From: a virus
DNA: 32,102 nt
IMG/VR virus record: IMGVR_UViG_3300028595_000349
Span: 1 to 32,102 of that record
Strand: one strand, 5' to 3'
In this document: piece after piece, positions 20,338 through 31,666 of the stretch
How the letters are laid out: each line of letters starts with the position of its first letter
Numbering within the stretch: the stretch's first letter is position 1
The notes under the pieces: generated by a model
The model's input: only the letters and a program-made list of their open reading frames with translations
What the model was told of the DNA's origin: nothing
The model's database searches: none
Program-made: the position numbers and the translations under genes

Positions 20338-20439
20338 CAAATAAGGCTTGCGAGGATTGCGTACAAACGGTTTTATTTTCCTTATTGACTATTTACCTTG
20401 CCTTTAAAATAACTCTTCTTATATCGAACGGCTAAATAC

Positions 20440-20459
20440 TTACTATATAAGCATTTACA
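20440..20459 (+). repeat. 20-bp direct repeat, copy 1
   Basis: This copy is identical to the one at 20511-20530. The conserved block runs TTACTATATA then AGCATTTACA and extends imperfectly into an ACATTTC/CTATTTC-like tail. It is preceded by CTAAATACT at 20432-20440. Candidate iteron or operator. Confidence 0.7.
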
Positions 20460-20510
20460 ACATTTCACTATATTTTACCTATGCCTAAATACTGCTATTT
20501 TGCTAACTTG

Positions 20511-20530
20511 TTACTATATAAGCATTTACA
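20511..20530 (+). repeat. 20-bp direct repeat, copy 2
   Basis: This is the second perfect copy, 71 bp downstream of the first, close to seven helical turns. The intervening DNA carries another CTAAATACT (20485-20493). Confidence 0.7.
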
Positions 20531-20632
20531 CTATTTCTATTTACATGAAAGTGTCAAGCTTTATTTAACTTTATCTATATATTTATTTTTGTTATTTTTT
20601 TTTATGTTTTTGTTGTTTTTTTTAAAAAATAC

Positions 20633-20661
20633 TTGACAAAATGGAATATATATGTTATACT
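20633..20661 (+). promoter_or_regulatory. Promoter of the hammerhead cassette
   Basis: TTGACA (20633-20638), 17-bp spacer, TATACT (20656-20661); expected start near 20668. A T-rich/A-rich tract upstream could act as an UP element. The 15 bases ending in the -35 box are identical to those before the 25000 promoter. Confidence 0.8.
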
Positions 20662-20695: not shown

Positions 20696-20905
20696 ATGAC
20701 AAGAGAAAACTTAAACCAAGAAAAATATGAAGAGAGTTATCCAATCCGAGAAGGACACAAAATCATAGGTTATACAACTGACATGGACTTTGAATTGATA
20801 TGGGAAGAGATGAAAAAAGTATTTAAAAAAGGTAACCGCTATTATTACACCTACAAAGACATGAGCAGTGAAGCGGGTGTCGAATTAATAGGCTTCCAAT
20901 ACTAA
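20696..20905 (+). CDS. Small protein, first gene of hammerhead cassette
   Basis: This 69-residue protein is not recognised. It is acidic at the start and has a basic, Tyr-rich middle (FKKGNRYYYTYKDM), with GYTTDMDFELIWEEMKKVF forming a likely helix. No membrane segment or signal is present. AAGGAG lies 7 bases before the ATG. The stop codon TAA at 20903-20905 is followed without any gap by the first base of hammerhead ribozyme 1. Its mRNA (about 282 nt from the expected start) would therefore end in the ribozyme after cleavage. Separation from the late and early operons and its own strong promoter suggest independent expression, perhaps early. Confidence 0.75.
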   Translation: MTRENLNQEKYEESYPIREGHKIIGYTTDMDFELIWEEMKKVFKKGNRYYYTYKDMSSEAGVELIGFQY

Positions 20906-20955
20906 GTCGTTCTGACGAGGCTTGCATAGCCGAAACGCCGTGAGGCGTCAACGAC
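20906..20955 (+). ncRNA. Type I hammerhead ribozyme 1
   Basis: All core elements are present in order: stem I GTCGTT (20906-20911), core CTGACGA (20912-20918), stem II GGCT/AGCC with loop TGCAT (20919-20931), core GAAA (20932-20935, last A pairing with T20948), stem III CGCC/GGCG closed by a GTGA (GNRA) tetraloop (20936-20947), then TC with predicted cleavage after C20949, and stem I AACGAC (20950-20955). Both ends lie in stem I, which defines type I. No conserved core residue is missing. Type I hammerheads are known from bacterial and phage DNA. Confidence 0.93.
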
Positions 20956-20976
20956 AAAAGAAAAAAGGAGAACAAA

Positions 20977-21165
20977 ATGAAAATACAAAAAATGAAATGG
21001 TACGAAAAAAAAGAGATTACAAAGATTGCAAAATATGTAACTAATAAATATGGTATTAAAATTACTACAAAAAATCTTTGTGATACAGGCACTAACGGTC
21101 TTATTTGCGAAGGCGGATATGGATGCAATATACTAGATAAAATAAAAAGTTATATTTGTCTTTAA
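20977..21165 (+). CDS. Small protein encoded between the two hammerheads
   Basis: This 62-residue basic protein is not recognised. It starts KIQKMKWYEKKEITKIAKYV and its second half is Cys/Gly-rich (NLCDTGTNGLICEGGYGCNI), with four Cys in all. The basic helix plus Cys-rich end could bind nucleic acid or metal, but no family pattern is clear. AAGGAG lies 7 bases before the ATG, within a leader (AACGACAAAAG...) that becomes the 5' end after cleavage by ribozyme 1. The stop TAA (21163-21165) abuts ribozyme 2. The gene would thus be carried on a 262-nt processed RNA. Confidence 0.75.
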   Translation: MKIQKMKWYEKKEITKIAKYVTNKYGIKITTKNLCDTGTNGLICEGGYGCNILDKIKSYICL

Positions 21166-21217
21166 GTCGTTCTGAAGAGGCTTCATTAGCCGAAACGGTC
21201 GTAAGACCGTCAACGAC
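21166..21217 (+). ncRNA. Type I hammerhead ribozyme 2
   Basis: Stem I GTCGTT/AACGAC (21166-21171, 21212-21217) and stem II GGCT/AGCC are identical to ribozyme 1. The core is CTGAAGA (21172-21178) and GAAA (21192-21195), and position 7 of the core is the only changed core base, a position known to tolerate any base. Stem III is CGGTC/GACCG with a GTAA tetraloop (21196-21209), one pair longer and of different sequence but fully paired. Predicted cleavage is after C21211. Preserved pairing despite substitutions is strong support for function. Confidence 0.93.
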
Positions 21218-21239
21218 AAAAGAAAATAAGTAAGCAAAA

Positions 21240-21269
21240 CTTTAACTAGTAAAAAAGTTAAGGTTTTTT
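21240..21269 (+). terminator. Bidirectional intrinsic terminator after the cassette
   Basis: CTTTAAC (21240-21246) pairs with GTTAAGG (21257-21263) with one G-U, extended by AAAA/TTTT, then a T-run (21264-21269). On the minus strand the same hairpin is followed by TTTTGC. It ends the hammerhead transcript and probably the convergent early-left operon, whose last stop codon lies in the T-run. Confidence 0.75.
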
Positions 21270-21396
21270 ATTTGTCTTTTTTATACGGCAATCTATCTAT
21301 ATAAAAACTAAGTGGCTTTGAATTGTGTATATCGAAACATAATGAAATTATGAAAAGTAAAATAAATAAACCTAAAAGTATTAATAATATTATCAT
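21268..21396 (-). CDS. Small single-pass membrane protein
   Basis: A 42-residue open frame on the minus strand begins after GAGGAGTAACAC. Residues 2-21 are almost wholly hydrophobic (IILLILLGLFILLFIISLC), followed by a short polar tail (HNSKPLSFYIDRLPYKKDK). One membrane helix with a basic cytoplasmic-type tail is expected. It is the last gene of the leftward operon and its stop lies in the terminator. The upstream leader retains the tail of a pentapeptide gene. The function is unknown. Confidence 0.6.
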   Translation of the reverse strand: MIILLILLGLFILLFIISLCFDIHNSKPLSFYIDRLPYKKDK

Positions 21397-21493: not shown

Positions 21494-21961
21494 TTAACAC
21501 GAATAACTCAAATTCGCATTTCGTAAATCCGCACTTTGTAAATCAGCATTGCGTAAATCAGCATTGCGTAAATCAGCATTTCGTAAATCAGCATCGCATA
21601 ATTTTGCACTTTGTAAATCCGAACCATACAAATTCGCAAAACGCAAATTAGCACCACCGAAATTCGCGCCATGCAAATCTGCGTCTTCTAAATCCGCGAA
21701 ACGTAAATCTGCGCCACTCAAATCAGCATTGGTTAAAACAGCGCCATATAAATCCGCATAACGTAAATCTGCACCTTCTAAAACAGCATTGCGTAAAACA
21801 GCACTTTGTAAATCAGCACCAGTTAAATTAGCACAACGTAAATCCGCACAACGTAAATCTATATTATTAACACTATGATAACATAGCCACCTCCGATAGC
21901 GATTGAATTTCTCAACCTCACCATTTTTTAGCCAATTTGTATAACGTTCTTTTTTTATCAT
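21494..21961 (-). CDS. Pentapeptide repeat protein (C-terminally truncated)
   Basis: This 155-residue protein has an N-terminal cap (KKERYTNWLKNGEVEKFNRY) shared with two paralogues at the right end. About 20 tandem A(D/N)LXX pentapeptides follow, predicted to form a right-handed quadrilateral beta-helix. It ends at NLSYSC followed by TAA, whereas the 31151 paralogue continues with a conserved C-terminal domain whose decayed traces lie downstream. Some pentapeptide proteins mimic DNA and bind gyrase; a role of that kind is only a suggestion here. A weak AAGGAT precedes the start and a strong hairpin lies upstream in the leader. Confidence 0.8.
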   Translation of the reverse strand: MIKKERYTNWLKNGEVEKFNRYRRWLCYHSVNNIDLRCADLRCANLTGADLQSAVLRNAVLEGADLRYADLYGAVLTNADLSGADLRFADLEDADLHGANFGGANLRFANLYGSDLQSAKLCDADLRNADLRNADLRNADLQSADLRNANLSYSC

Positions 21962-26243: not shown

Positions 26244-27452
26244 ATGGAAATACAAATAAATGAAAAAATAAAAAATATCATTCCTGCATTAACGAAAGAA
26301 GAATTTGAATTGTTAGAAAAAAGTATTATTACGGAAGGCTGCCGTGATGCTCTTATTGTTTGGAATGGTATATTAATCGATGGGCATAACAGATATAACA
26401 TTTGCAAGAAACATCAAATTGATTTTAAATATATTGAAAAAGAATTTGATAGTATTGAGGACGTTAAAGATTGGATTATTGTAAATCAACTTAGTAGAAG
26501 AAACTTAACGAAAGAACAACGGCAATATTTGATTGGTTTGCGTTATAGGAATGAAAAAAATAAACATGGTACTAATAGATATACAAATAAGAGGGCTCAA
26601 AATGAGCCCTCTAAAACATACAATAAAATAGCTGATGAAGAAAACGTAAGCAAGGAAACCGTGAAGCGTGCGGAAAAGTTTGCAAATGCTATTGACAAAC
26701 TTACCGAAACGTGCGGGAATAAAATAAAGGATAAAATATTAAATCGTGAAGTTAAAGCATCTCAAAAAGATGTACAAAAGTTAATAAACTTTGATACTGA
26801 AAAACAAAAAGAAATAATTAATGAAGTAGTTGAAAATAATTTAAGTATTAGTAAAGCTATTAAAAATATAAAAGTAAAAGCACAAAGGAAAAAAAGAGTT
26901 GAAAAACTAGATAAACCATATATAATTTTTAAGGTAGATAAGAAATATAATATTATTTACGCTGACCCCCCATGGAAATATCCTGCACCAAAAGAATTTT
27001 ACGGTCAAGACGTGCAATTTCATTACAATACGATGTCTATATCTGAATTAAAAGAATTGCCGGTTAAAGAAATTTCTAAAGATGATTGTGTTTTGTATCT
27101 TTGGGCTACTGCACCACTTTTAGACGTCGCAATTGAACTTTTAAAAACTTGGGGCTTTAAATATAAATCTTGTCTTGTATGGGATAAAGTAAAACATAAC
27201 ATGGGTTTTTATTCAAGTGTTCGGCACGAAATATTATTAATTGGTGGGCGTGGTCAATCAGCACCGACCGACAAAAAGTATGCAAATCAAACTGATAGCG
27301 TATATTCTGAACCCCGTCAAGAACATTCAAAAAAACCTTTATTTTATTATGAAATGATTGAAAAAATGCATCCGTATAAAACTGAAAAGATTGAACTTTT
27401 TGCAAGACAAAAAAAAGAAGGTTGGGATAGTTGGGGTAAAGAAGTAAGATAA
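26244..27452 (+). CDS. ParB-like domain fused to MT-A70-type adenine methyltransferase
   Basis: This 402-residue protein has an N-terminal ParB/Sulfiredoxin-fold domain (ILIDGHNRYNICKKHQI, about 43-59, with DGHNRY replacing the usual GERR), an HTH-like segment NVSKETVKRAEKFANAI (134-150), and a C-terminal methyltransferase of the MT-A70 family with DPPW (241-244) in NIIYADPPWKYP, then VLYLWATAPLLDVAIELLKTWGFKY and RHEILLIGGRG. It probably methylates adenine N6 in DNA, the ParB part binding DNA or a partner. A perfect 9-bp hairpin (26590-26612) lies in the linker. Start after AAGGAT. It is followed by a nuclease-fold candidate. Confidence 0.85.
   Translation: MEIQINEKIKNIIPALTKEEFELLEKSIITEGCRDALIVWNGILIDGHNRYNICKKHQIDFKYIEKEFDSIEDVKDWIIVNQLSRRNLTKEQRQYLIGLRYRNEKNKHGTNRYTNKRAQNEPSKTYNKIADEENVSKETVKRAEKFANAIDKLTETCGNKIKDKILNREVKASQKDVQKLINFDTEKQKEIINEVVENNLSISKAIKNIKVKAQRKKRVEKLDKPYIIFKVDKKYNIIYADPPWKYPAPKEFYGQDVQFHYNTMSISELKELPVKEISKDDCVLYLWATAPLLDVAIELLKTWGFKYKSCLVWDKVKHNMGFYSSVRHEILLIGGRGQSAPTDKKYANQTDSVYSEPRQEHSKKPLFYYEMIEKMHPYKTEKIELFARQKKEGWDSWGKEVR
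26590..26612 (+). repeat. 9-bp inverted repeat inside the ParB/methylase gene
   Basis: AGAGGGCTC (26590-26598) and GAGCCCTCT (26604-26612) are perfectly complementary with a 5-base AAAAT loop. It is much more GC-rich than its surroundings and codes part of the linker between the two domains. Confidence 0.7.
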
Positions 27453-27946: not shown

Positions 27947-28712
27947 ACCAAAAAAAATAATAAGAGTAATAAAAGATAAAGACAATCCGTATGTTATAAT
28001 TAATAAAAACCCGTTAGATGATGTAAATTTATCCTGGCAAGCAAAAGGTTTGCTATGCTACTTACTAAGCAAGCCGGACGACTGGGAAATATTTTTATCT
28101 GATTTAAAAAATAGAAGTACAAACGGTAGAGACAGCACAGCGTCGATTTTGAACGAATTGATAAAAGCCGGTTATATTTCAAGAACAAAGAAAGAAAATA
28201 AAGGTAAATTTCGTGGTTATGATTATACTGTTTTTGAAAAGAAAGAGCTTAACCGTATCGGAAAAACCGTAACGGAAAACCCGACGGTACTATATAATGA
28301 ATTAACTAATAATATTAGCAGGAACGAAACTAGCGATAAAAACGAAAACTCTTTTCCTGCCAAACAAGAAGAACAACCCAGCAAGCAAGAAAAATTTACT
28401 GCAAAAAGTGTGATAGCTAAATTCTTAGATAGTTATGTTGCGGTTTTTGGCGTTGCTTATCAAGGCAAGATAGCAGGAAAGGAGGCGGGCAGCGCTAAGC
28501 AGATAACAAAAAAAGTGTTATCTTGCGAACCGGAAACACCGCATGAGTTTTTAGATGAGCTTTTAGAAGTTGCGTTTCAGGATAACTGGTTCTATAAAAA
28601 TGCAAGTCTATCAGTTTTGAATAGCACAAAGTTTTTTAATCAGTGTGTTCGGAAGGTTAAGCAACGAAATATAGACCCGTACGCTAACTTAGATAAAGTG
28701 AGTGCGATATGA
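27939..28712 (+). CDS. Replication initiator / helicase loader-type winged-helix protein
   Basis: This 257-residue protein begins with a winged-helix domain as in DnaD/replisome-organiser proteins: NPYVIINKNPLDDVNLSWQA, KGLLCYLLSKPDDWEIFLSDLKNRSTNGRDSTASILNELIKAGYISRTKKENKGKFRGYDYTV (about 33-95). The middle is low-complexity (KQEEQPSKQEKF) and the C-terminus is a small helical domain. A DnaB-type helicase gene lies downstream in the same operon, so origin recognition or helicase loading is the likely role. GTGGAGGAT precedes the start; the gene overlaps its neighbours on both sides. Confidence 0.75.
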   Translation: MNKPKKIIRVIKDKDNPYVIINKNPLDDVNLSWQAKGLLCYLLSKPDDWEIFLSDLKNRSTNGRDSTASILNELIKAGYISRTKKENKGKFRGYDYTVFEKKELNRIGKTVTENPTVLYNELTNNISRNETSDKNENSFPAKQEEQPSKQEKFTAKSVIAKFLDSYVAVFGVAYQGKIAGKEAGSAKQITKKVLSCEPETPHEFLDELLEVAFQDNWFYKNASLSVLNSTKFFNQCVRKVKQRNIDPYANLDKVSAI

Positions 28713-29500
28713 GCAAGTTAAAAGAAAAAAAGAGTGAAAAAAGAAAAGAGTATAAAATTAACTTTTTCAACGACCATTTTCAAAACTATAAGAGATACGG
28801 GATTCCAAAAGCTCAACTTGTTATCGCTGATATTCCTTACAATATTGGGATTAATGCTTACGCTTCTAATCCGAATTGGTATAAAGATTGTGATAGAACA
28901 AACGGTGAATCTAGTTTAGCAAAAAAACAGTTTTTCGATACCGATAAGAACTTTAATTTAAAAGAGTTTTTTCATTTTTGTAGTAAGCTACTTAGAAAAG
29001 AACCTAAGGAAGTTAACCAAGCGCCTTGCATGGTCGTTTTTTGTGCTTTTGAACAGCAATTTGGGTTAATCGAAACTGCAAAAGAATATGGGTTGAATAA
29101 TTATATTAATTTGGTTTTTAGAAAAAAAACATCTGCGCAAGTTTTGAAGGCGAATCAACGTATAGTCGGAAACTGTGAATATGGTTTAGTTTTGTATCGG
29201 GATAAGTTACCTAAATTTAGAAATAACGGTAGAATGATATATAATTGTTTTGAGTATAGACGGGATAAGTATATCCCTGTAATACACCCTACTCAAAAAC
29301 CCGTTAATTTACTAGAAAGTATTATAAGAATTTTTACAGATGAGGGTGATGTTGTTATCGACCCTGTTGCCGGGAGCGCAACTACTTTGCTAGCGGCGCA
29401 TTTATTAAAAAGACAAGCATACGGTTTTGAAATAAAAAAGAATTTTTTTAAGGAAGCTAACGAAAAAATATTAAATAATTTTCAGATGAAGTTATTTTAG
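28709..29500 (+). CDS. DNA methyltransferase (N6/N4, beta-class-like)
   Basis: This 263-residue protein carries motif IV as DIPY (41-44) in VIADIPYNIG, the conserved HPTQKP (193-198) and motif I DPVAGSATT (218-226), then AAHLLKRQAYGFEIKK. The order, catalytic motif first and AdoMet motif last, is that of beta-class N6/N4 methylases. The second residue Ile in DIPY is unusual compared with DPPY. No cognate restriction enzyme is adjacent, so it is probably a solitary methylase for protection or regulation. The ATG overlaps the preceding stop (ATGA). Confidence 0.85.
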   Translation: MSKLKEKKSEKRKEYKINFFNDHFQNYKRYGIPKAQLVIADIPYNIGINAYASNPNWYKDCDRTNGESSLAKKQFFDTDKNFNLKEFFHFCSKLLRKEPKEVNQAPCMVVFCAFEQQFGLIETAKEYGLNNYINLVFRKKTSAQVLKANQRIVGNCEYGLVLYRDKLPKFRNNGRMIYNCFEYRRDKYIPVIHPTQKPVNLLESIIRIFTDEGDVVIDPVAGSATTLLAAHLLKRQAYGFEIKKNFFKEANEKILNNFQMKLF

Positions 29501-31150: not shown

Positions 31151-31666
31151 ATGACAAAAAAAGAAAGATATACAGAATGGTTACAAAACGGTGAAATAAA
31201 AAAATTCAACCGCTATCGAAGATGGTTATGGTATCATGGTGTTAATAATATAGATTTATATAAAGTAAATTTTCATAATTCTGATTTACGTGATGTGGAT
31301 TTCCATAAAGCAAATTTAAGCGGAGCTGTTTTACGTGGTGCGGATTTGTGTGGGGCGGATTTACGTTTTGCGTATTTATATGGTGCTGATTTACGTGATG
31401 CGGGTTTACAAGGCGCTTATTTAAACGGTGCGAATTCCGGTGGTGCGAATTTACAAGGTGCGGATTTAGATTACTCTTGCTTGCCTTTATATTGTGGAAG
31501 TTTTGACATGAAAATTGATAAACGAATATTCACACAAATAGCGTATCATCTTTGTAGATTTAAAGTTAATGATAGCGAGTGTGTAGAATTGCAAAAGATA
31601 ATGGCGAAATTAGCAAATAAAAGTCATATTATCAAAGAGCATGGCTGTAAAAAGATAGAGGAGTAA
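31151..31666 (+). CDS. Pentapeptide repeat protein with conserved C-terminal domain
   Basis: This 171-residue protein has an N-terminal cap (KKERYTEWLQNGEIKKFNRY then RRWLWYHGVNNIDL), about 15 pentapeptide repeats of the A(D/N)LXX form (about 38-110), then a globular C-terminal domain of about 60 residues (YCGSFDMKIDKRIFTQIAYH ... LANKSHIIKEHGCKKIEE). It is the intact paralogue of the truncated minus-strand gene at 21494 and of the partial gene at 31671. AAGGAGTAACACG lies before the ATG. Beta-helix proteins of this type may mimic DNA; the role in this phage is unknown. Confidence 0.85.
   Translation: MTKKERYTEWLQNGEIKKFNRYRRWLWYHGVNNIDLYKVNFHNSDLRDVDFHKANLSGAVLRGADLCGADLRFAYLYGADLRDAGLQGAYLNGANSGGANLQGADLDYSCLPLYCGSFDMKIDKRIFTQIAYHLCRFKVNDSECVELQKIMAKLANKSHIIKEHGCKKIEE

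Follow-up and report, generated by a model that had tools for sequence, protein, structure and literature searches.

Two complete type I hammerhead motifs that probably punctuate a small operon of a tailed phage

The window analysed here comprises 32,102 bases with a G+C content of 35% and is the whole of an IMG/VR virus record. Its plus strand carries genes for a terminase, a tape-measure protein, a tail-fibre protein, an endolysin and a spanin, and these structural and lysis genes are followed by a minus-strand block encoding YopX, an exonuclease-like protein, SSB and ERF. The nearest relatives of the DnaB helicase encoded in the window include Listeria and Streptococcus phage proteins at 34-36% identity, and judging from these neighbours the phage looks Bacillota-like. 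Between the lysis genes and the convergent minus-strand block lies a small unit in which a probable promoter is followed by ORF69, ribozyme 1, ORF62 and ribozyme 2, and which closes with a hairpin and its T-rich tail (Table 1). Our best explanation, which taken as a whole we consider likely, is that the window comes from a tailed phage and that the ribozyme-bearing unit is a small accessory operon.

Several other features of the window were recorded. Two 36-nt direct repeats (20431-20466 and 20502-20537; 86%, core TTACTATATAAGCATTTACA) lie between the lysis genes and the promoter and are possibly an operator or a late-gene terminator region. Two pentapeptide-repeat-like proteins, encoded at 21494-21961 on the minus strand and 31151-31666 on the plus strand, match the same PHROGs, and the first of these genes shows a DNA periodicity of 15 nt. 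Two DNA methyltransferase genes are found on the plus strand (26244-27452 and 28709-29500), the first with an additional ParB-like match over residues 14-218; the two enzymes possibly have an anti-restriction role.

Table 1. Features of the ribozyme-bearing unit; hyphens separate stem strands from loops, and a caret marks the predicted cut.
Feature	Position	Strand	Details
Probable promoter	20633..20661	+	TTGACA-17-TATACT, TG ahead of -10; predicted start ~20668
ORF69, 69 aa, no assigned function	20696..20905	+	RBS AAAGGAGAA ahead of ATG; stop TAA 20903-20905
Type I hammerhead ribozyme 1	20906..20955	+	GTCGTT CTGACGA GGCT-TGCAT-AGCC GAA ACGCC-GTGA-GGCGT C^AACGAC; predicted cut C20949/A20950; 55.6 bits, E 7.4e-14
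Leader of released ORF62 mRNA	20950..20976	+	predicted 5'-OH; GGAG at 20967-20970
ORF62, 62 aa, no assigned function	20977..21165	+	stop TAA 21163-21165
Type I hammerhead ribozyme 2	21166..21217	+	GTCGTT CTGAAGA GGCT-TCATT-AGCC GAA ACGGTC-GTAA-GACCGT C^AACGAC; predicted cut C21211/A21212; 68.3 bits, E 1.5e-17
Second-leader relic	21212..21239	+	AACGACAAAAGAAAATAAGTAAGCAAAA; resembles ORF62 leader, GGAG lost
Probable intrinsic terminator	21236..21275	+	12-bp hairpin 21236-21267 + T-rich tail; -9.6 kcal/mol

The probable promoter matches the consensus at 11 of 12 positions with a spacer of 17. Promoter-like sites were no commoner in our scan than in shuffled sequences (4 vs 6.6), and the call therefore depends on the quality of this single site. 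The probable terminator was overlooked by the scan that gave the promoter because its stem holds few G-C pairs. From these two signals we infer a single transcript for the ribozymes and the ORFs. For both ORF69 and ORF62, searches gave no credible Pfam, PHROG or PADLOC family and no relative among viral contigs. One genome match to ORF62 (locus L126) looks spurious, as it apparently spans, out of frame, the beginning of a gene for a sugar-nucleotide dehydrogenase-like protein, and no hammerhead was found near the matching site. A homologous cassette in known phages was likewise rejected: the DNA similarity is mostly a weak 75-nt match (76-78%, query positions 329-403) that covers the promoter and the ORF69 leader.

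Both elements are complete type I hammerhead motifs. The core, CUGANGA ... GAAA ... UH at the cleavage site, is perfect in each copy, with a predicted cut after GUC, and is surrounded by stems of 6, 4 and 5-6 bp, of which stem I is open and stems II and III are capped. Stems I and II are identical between the two copies and loops II differ; stem III has 5 bp in element 1 and 6 bp in element 2, and changes in sequence while keeping all pairs and a GNRA cap. The complete cores, the identical stems I and II and the compensated stem III had been described in the initial annotation, and reading the sequence confirmed them. The cut sites that it predicted are supported by complete motifs at both positions, and the RNA between them is, as it had stated, 262 nt long with a single ORF of 62 codons. 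The full motif occurs twice in the window, as elements 1 and 2. By chance it appeared 2 times in 300 simulated windows (both strands) and 0 times in 1.12 Mb of reversed loci. For element 2 the hammerhead is the minimum-energy fold (z -3.6); for element 1 the optimum has a rearranged core, and stems I, II and III are present in the centroid (z -2.1). A search of viral contigs for the stem I strand GTCGTT with any stem II gave no match.

Two features of the arrangement were absent from the initial annotation. Each ribozyme begins at the first base past a TAA stop, that of ORF69 for ribozyme 1 and that of ORF62 for ribozyme 2, and the pair is enclosed by its own probable promoter and terminator. 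The repeats common to both ribozyme sites consist of the ribozymes and their leaders. The leaders are 84% alike over 32 nt, the second being without an RBS, and this similarity points to duplication of a ribozyme-leader unit. As only the leader relic and the terminator lie 3' of ribozyme 2, this copy parts no genes here.

At its gathering score Rfam reported neither window hammerhead, and a 451-nt scan at E<=10 gave no hammerhead. In a 63-nt scan around element 2, RF00163 (Hammerhead_1), which has the same core and open stem I as the window elements, aligned end to end over all 45 positions with 20.4 bits, short of its gathering score of 34. RF03152 (RAGATH-1-hammerhead) gave 20.8 bits against a gathering score of 56.3; within the aligned model positions 26-77 stem I is likewise open, whereas the first 25 positions of this model have no counterpart in element 2. 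The short scan covered element 2, and element 1 was scanned within longer stretches with no match reported. The initial annotation had counted a score below the family threshold against its own proposal, and formally this is the outcome for element 2, with element 1 unreported; the gathering score is a model threshold and no biochemical criterion. We also built an independent covariance model from 58 other phage hammerheads, the window excluded. In the window it found element 2 (68.3 bits), element 1 (55.6 bits) and nothing else. Rfam at gathering was also without a match in 14 loci that carry arrays of perfect hammerheads (L010, L011, L015, L016, L024, L029, L046, L048, L056, L058, L066, L113, L118 and L119). 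Since perfect arrays are also Rfam-silent and the independent model scores both window sites, the Rfam failure is a limit of the model, and Rfam-based annotation pipelines will under-report compact phage hammerheads.

Family members were sampled from IMG/VR with two patterns, one based on the stem II of the window and a second, broader one, and counts were taken among the matches listed. Both samples together hold at least 288 complete type I hammerheads in at least 194 loci, and at least 57 loci-strands carry two to seven copies. None of the 194 loci listed has copies on both strands. Among the matches listed in the first sample, stem I measures exactly 6 bp in 147 of 152 copies, and 142 of these 147 have an A on both sides of it. 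The 36 listed copies that fall off the stem II of the fetch pattern obey the same rule (35 six-bp stems, 36 with A upstream, 35 with A downstream), and the rule is therefore no artefact of the query. Loop II is mostly five bases long, among the matches listed always with T first, with A third in 128/134 and T last in 103/134. In an alignment of 58 members, 16 pairs are kept in all rows, a figure of 100% that is partly by construction as the rows were chosen to form stems; 14 of the 16 pairs show two-sided changes, and pairing falls to ~33% when the alignment is slid. Watson-Crick pseudoknots between loop II and the flanks showed no excess over shuffles, so any contact between them would be non-canonical.

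Both window ribozymes belong to this compact phage type I form, defined by a stem I of 6 bp with an A/A closure, a 4-bp stem II, a UNANU-type loop and a position at gene ends on the coding strand. The A flanks, the 6-bp stem I and a stop at offset 0 are found in both copies. Loop II of copy 2, UCAUU, fits UNANU, and that of copy 1, UGCAU, is one of the rare variants, its middle base being C. Elsewhere in the family, arrays of four to five hammerheads occur in L058, L113, L127, L046 and L118; every copy in L113 and L058 has the stem I GGTTAA, and in L046 and L118 each position has a stem I of its own.

The position at gene ends is a property of the family. Among the matches listed in the first sample, 137 of 152 copies have the end of an ORF (40 codons or longer) between -30 and +20 of stem I, compared with 146 of 760 random points (19%). 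The commonest stop offsets to stem I there are 0, +1, +6 and +10; stops also fall inside loop II (+20), and these may merely end chance frames. The start of an RBS-led ORF follows downstream, at most 60 nt away, for 87/152 of the same copies (57%), against 89/760 random points (12%). No conserved partner gene was found among the matches listed, where the neighbour proteins form 351 clusters, 260 of them singletons, and this diversity ties the ribozyme to gene boundaries and to no single gene. Exactly one RBS-led ORF lies in 35 of 94 listed fragments between neighbouring ribozymes, so that one gene per fragment is common but no rule.

The reading that we consider likely is that the two elements are active self-cleaving ribozymes and punctuate a small phage operon with its own promoter and terminator. 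A single transcript of ~600 nt, running from the promoter near 20633 to the terminator near 21270, would contain ORF69, ribozyme 1, ORF62 and ribozyme 2. Cuts after 20949 and 21211, during or after transcription, would then yield an ORF69 mRNA of ~282 nt, an ORF62 mRNA of 262 nt and a short terminator fragment. The 3' end of both mRNAs would be a folded ribozyme bearing a 2',3'-cyclic phosphate, and the ORF62 mRNA and the terminator fragment would start with a 5'-OH. The likely gain would be a separate stability and translation for each message. This reading is supported by the complete cores and near-zero chance expectation of the motif, the hits of the independent model, the two-sided covariation in the family, the restriction of copies to one strand, the position at gene ends, the diversity of the neighbouring genes and the probable promoter and terminator of the unit. 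Against it count the rearranged optimum fold of element 1, the lack of genes for ribozyme 2 to part and the modest share of family fragments that contain exactly one RBS-led ORF. Tandem arrays of a comparable kind in prophages were shown to cut themselves, in vitro as well as in E. coli (PMC3088659). For the window we infer cleavage of both copies, the resulting transcript ends and an effect on mRNA fate.

The same products would arise if cutting served to lower expression, as with glmS in Bacillus: exposure of a 5'-OH message or of an unprotected 3' end would lead to rapid decay and a lower output of the small genes. By sequence this mode of control is inseparable from punctuation. In Bacillota, RNase J can degrade RNA with a 5'-OH, and decay of such RNA would suit a phage whose DnaB lies near those of Listeria and Streptococcus phages. 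However, the ribozymes are tied to no one gene type, and the 50-nt elements carry no ligand-binding or regulatory extension; we regard down-control as unlikely, though it is the strongest of the rivals. Marginally less probable, in our judgement, is a gate set by the ribosome. As stop codons abut or overlap stem I, a ribosome that terminates there would cover stem I and the core, and the ribozyme could fold and cut only if upstream translation pauses or ceases.

The initial annotation had proposed a retrozyme-like coding circle, in which the 3' ribozyme re-ligates the excised fragment into a 262-nt circular RNA with ORF62. Stem I is identical in both window ribozymes, and AACGAC at the 5' end of the fragment could pair with GTCGTT near its 3' end; among the listed neighbours less than 500 nt apart, stem I is compatible in 31 of 38. 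However, a shared stem I is enough to produce this match in any two ribozymes, so that it follows from duplication, and the window's own pair, its stem I being identical, is by itself undecidable for circle closing. We therefore turned to the family, where closing a circle demands that the 5' stem I strand of the downstream ribozyme pair with the 3' strand of the upstream one. Among the matches listed, stem I pairs perfectly in this direction in 50 of 89 neighbour pairs, against 8% of unrelated pairs, and 39 of 89 pairs are unable to do so. Identity between neighbours, seen in 34/89 for stem I and 27/89 for stem III (first 5 nt) among the matches listed, follows from duplication. Selection is parted from kinship by comparing the two directions among non-identical pairs: of the 55 such pairs listed, 16 are perfect in the circle direction and 20 in the opposite one (exclusively so, 10 and 14). 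In related phages (L046/L118 and L029/L048), moreover, every position of the array retains a stem I distinct from those at the others, and it is stem III that changes. Without an excess in the circle direction, and with stem I specific to position, there is no sign of selection for circle closing. A retrozyme also needs a reverse-transcription route, and no reverse transcriptase match was found among the window proteins scanned, which cover part of the ORFs. Circles were looked for in phage arrays and none were detected (Perreault et al., 2011; PMC3088659). We consider the coding circle quite improbable, and of the suggested 'retrozyme-like or mRNA-tailoring system' it is mRNA tailoring that the data support. 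That the elements are decayed, functionless copies of a spreading element that lost cutting is more improbable still, for although the leader after ribozyme 2 lacks an RBS and no gene lies behind it, both cores are perfect, stem III differs with all pairs kept and the family covaries strongly on both sides of its stems.

The framing of a gene by paired ribozymes, which the initial annotation had set apart from known phage hammerheads, is not new and was published in 2011. Perreault et al. (2011; PMC3088659) reported that prophages often have several hammerheads placed around a single gene or a short block of genes; they proposed processing of long transcripts, and sought spliced or circular products with none detected. 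A 2017 review (PMC6155905) still described the role of phage hammerheads as open and mentioned small unconserved ORFs between them. Our search for a later survey of type I hammerheads in phages covered the open-access literature, a scope outside which most subscription papers and preprints fall, and gave none. Like those prophage arrays, the window has two or more hammerheads that flank genes of phage origin in a single predicted transcript, and in both cases there is no constant partner gene; ahead of the two hammerheads of the window lie structural, tail and lysis genes. The window differs in its phage and in ORFs without known relatives. It is thus a fresh example of an arrangement known in phages since 2011 and no new system. 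Judged by the text of PMC3088659, three points may be novel: the 6-bp stem I with its A/A closure, the placement relative to stop codons and the test of direction. The retrozymes of plants and animals share with the window two hammerheads that bracket one transcribed unit, but the window elements are of type I and belong to the DNA genome of a phage, neither retroelement parts nor, among the window proteins scanned, a route for reverse transcription came to light, and the family shows no circle bias.

The independent model also found the element, at 47-56 bits, in cultured phages: the pelagiphages HTVC019P, HTVC022P, HTVC131P and Jormungand, and the Flavobacterium phage elemoC. The annotation of these records lists no hammerhead at the matched sites. 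These copies share the compact architecture of the window elements and lie on the same strand as the early small genes, in the pelagiphages just upstream of the MarR-integrase genes; unlike the window, each genome has a single copy, with a longer stem III. Two hammerhead copies occur in uvMED S35-C6, which exists as a fosmid only. As further observations, ArdA genes lie ~1.3 kb upstream of the hammerhead in Jormungand (compare the ardA link in PMC3088659), and pelagiphages L219-L221, L223 and L224 have an unannotated type I hammerhead ~0.4 kb ahead of their MarR-integrase genes.

Taken alone, the window pair adds one more example to a question, the role of hammerheads in phages, that has been open since 2011. 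The comparison yields more: environmental phages carry the compact type I form in abundance, Rfam misses it at gathering scores, and it marks gene ends whatever the gene. Because cultured pelagiphages and Flavobacterium phages carry the element, its effect on mRNA is testable in infected cells. Were cleavage gated by ribosomes, the ribozymes of a very large set of phages would act as sensors of translation, gene by gene, and would cut short the life of messages that are poorly translated.
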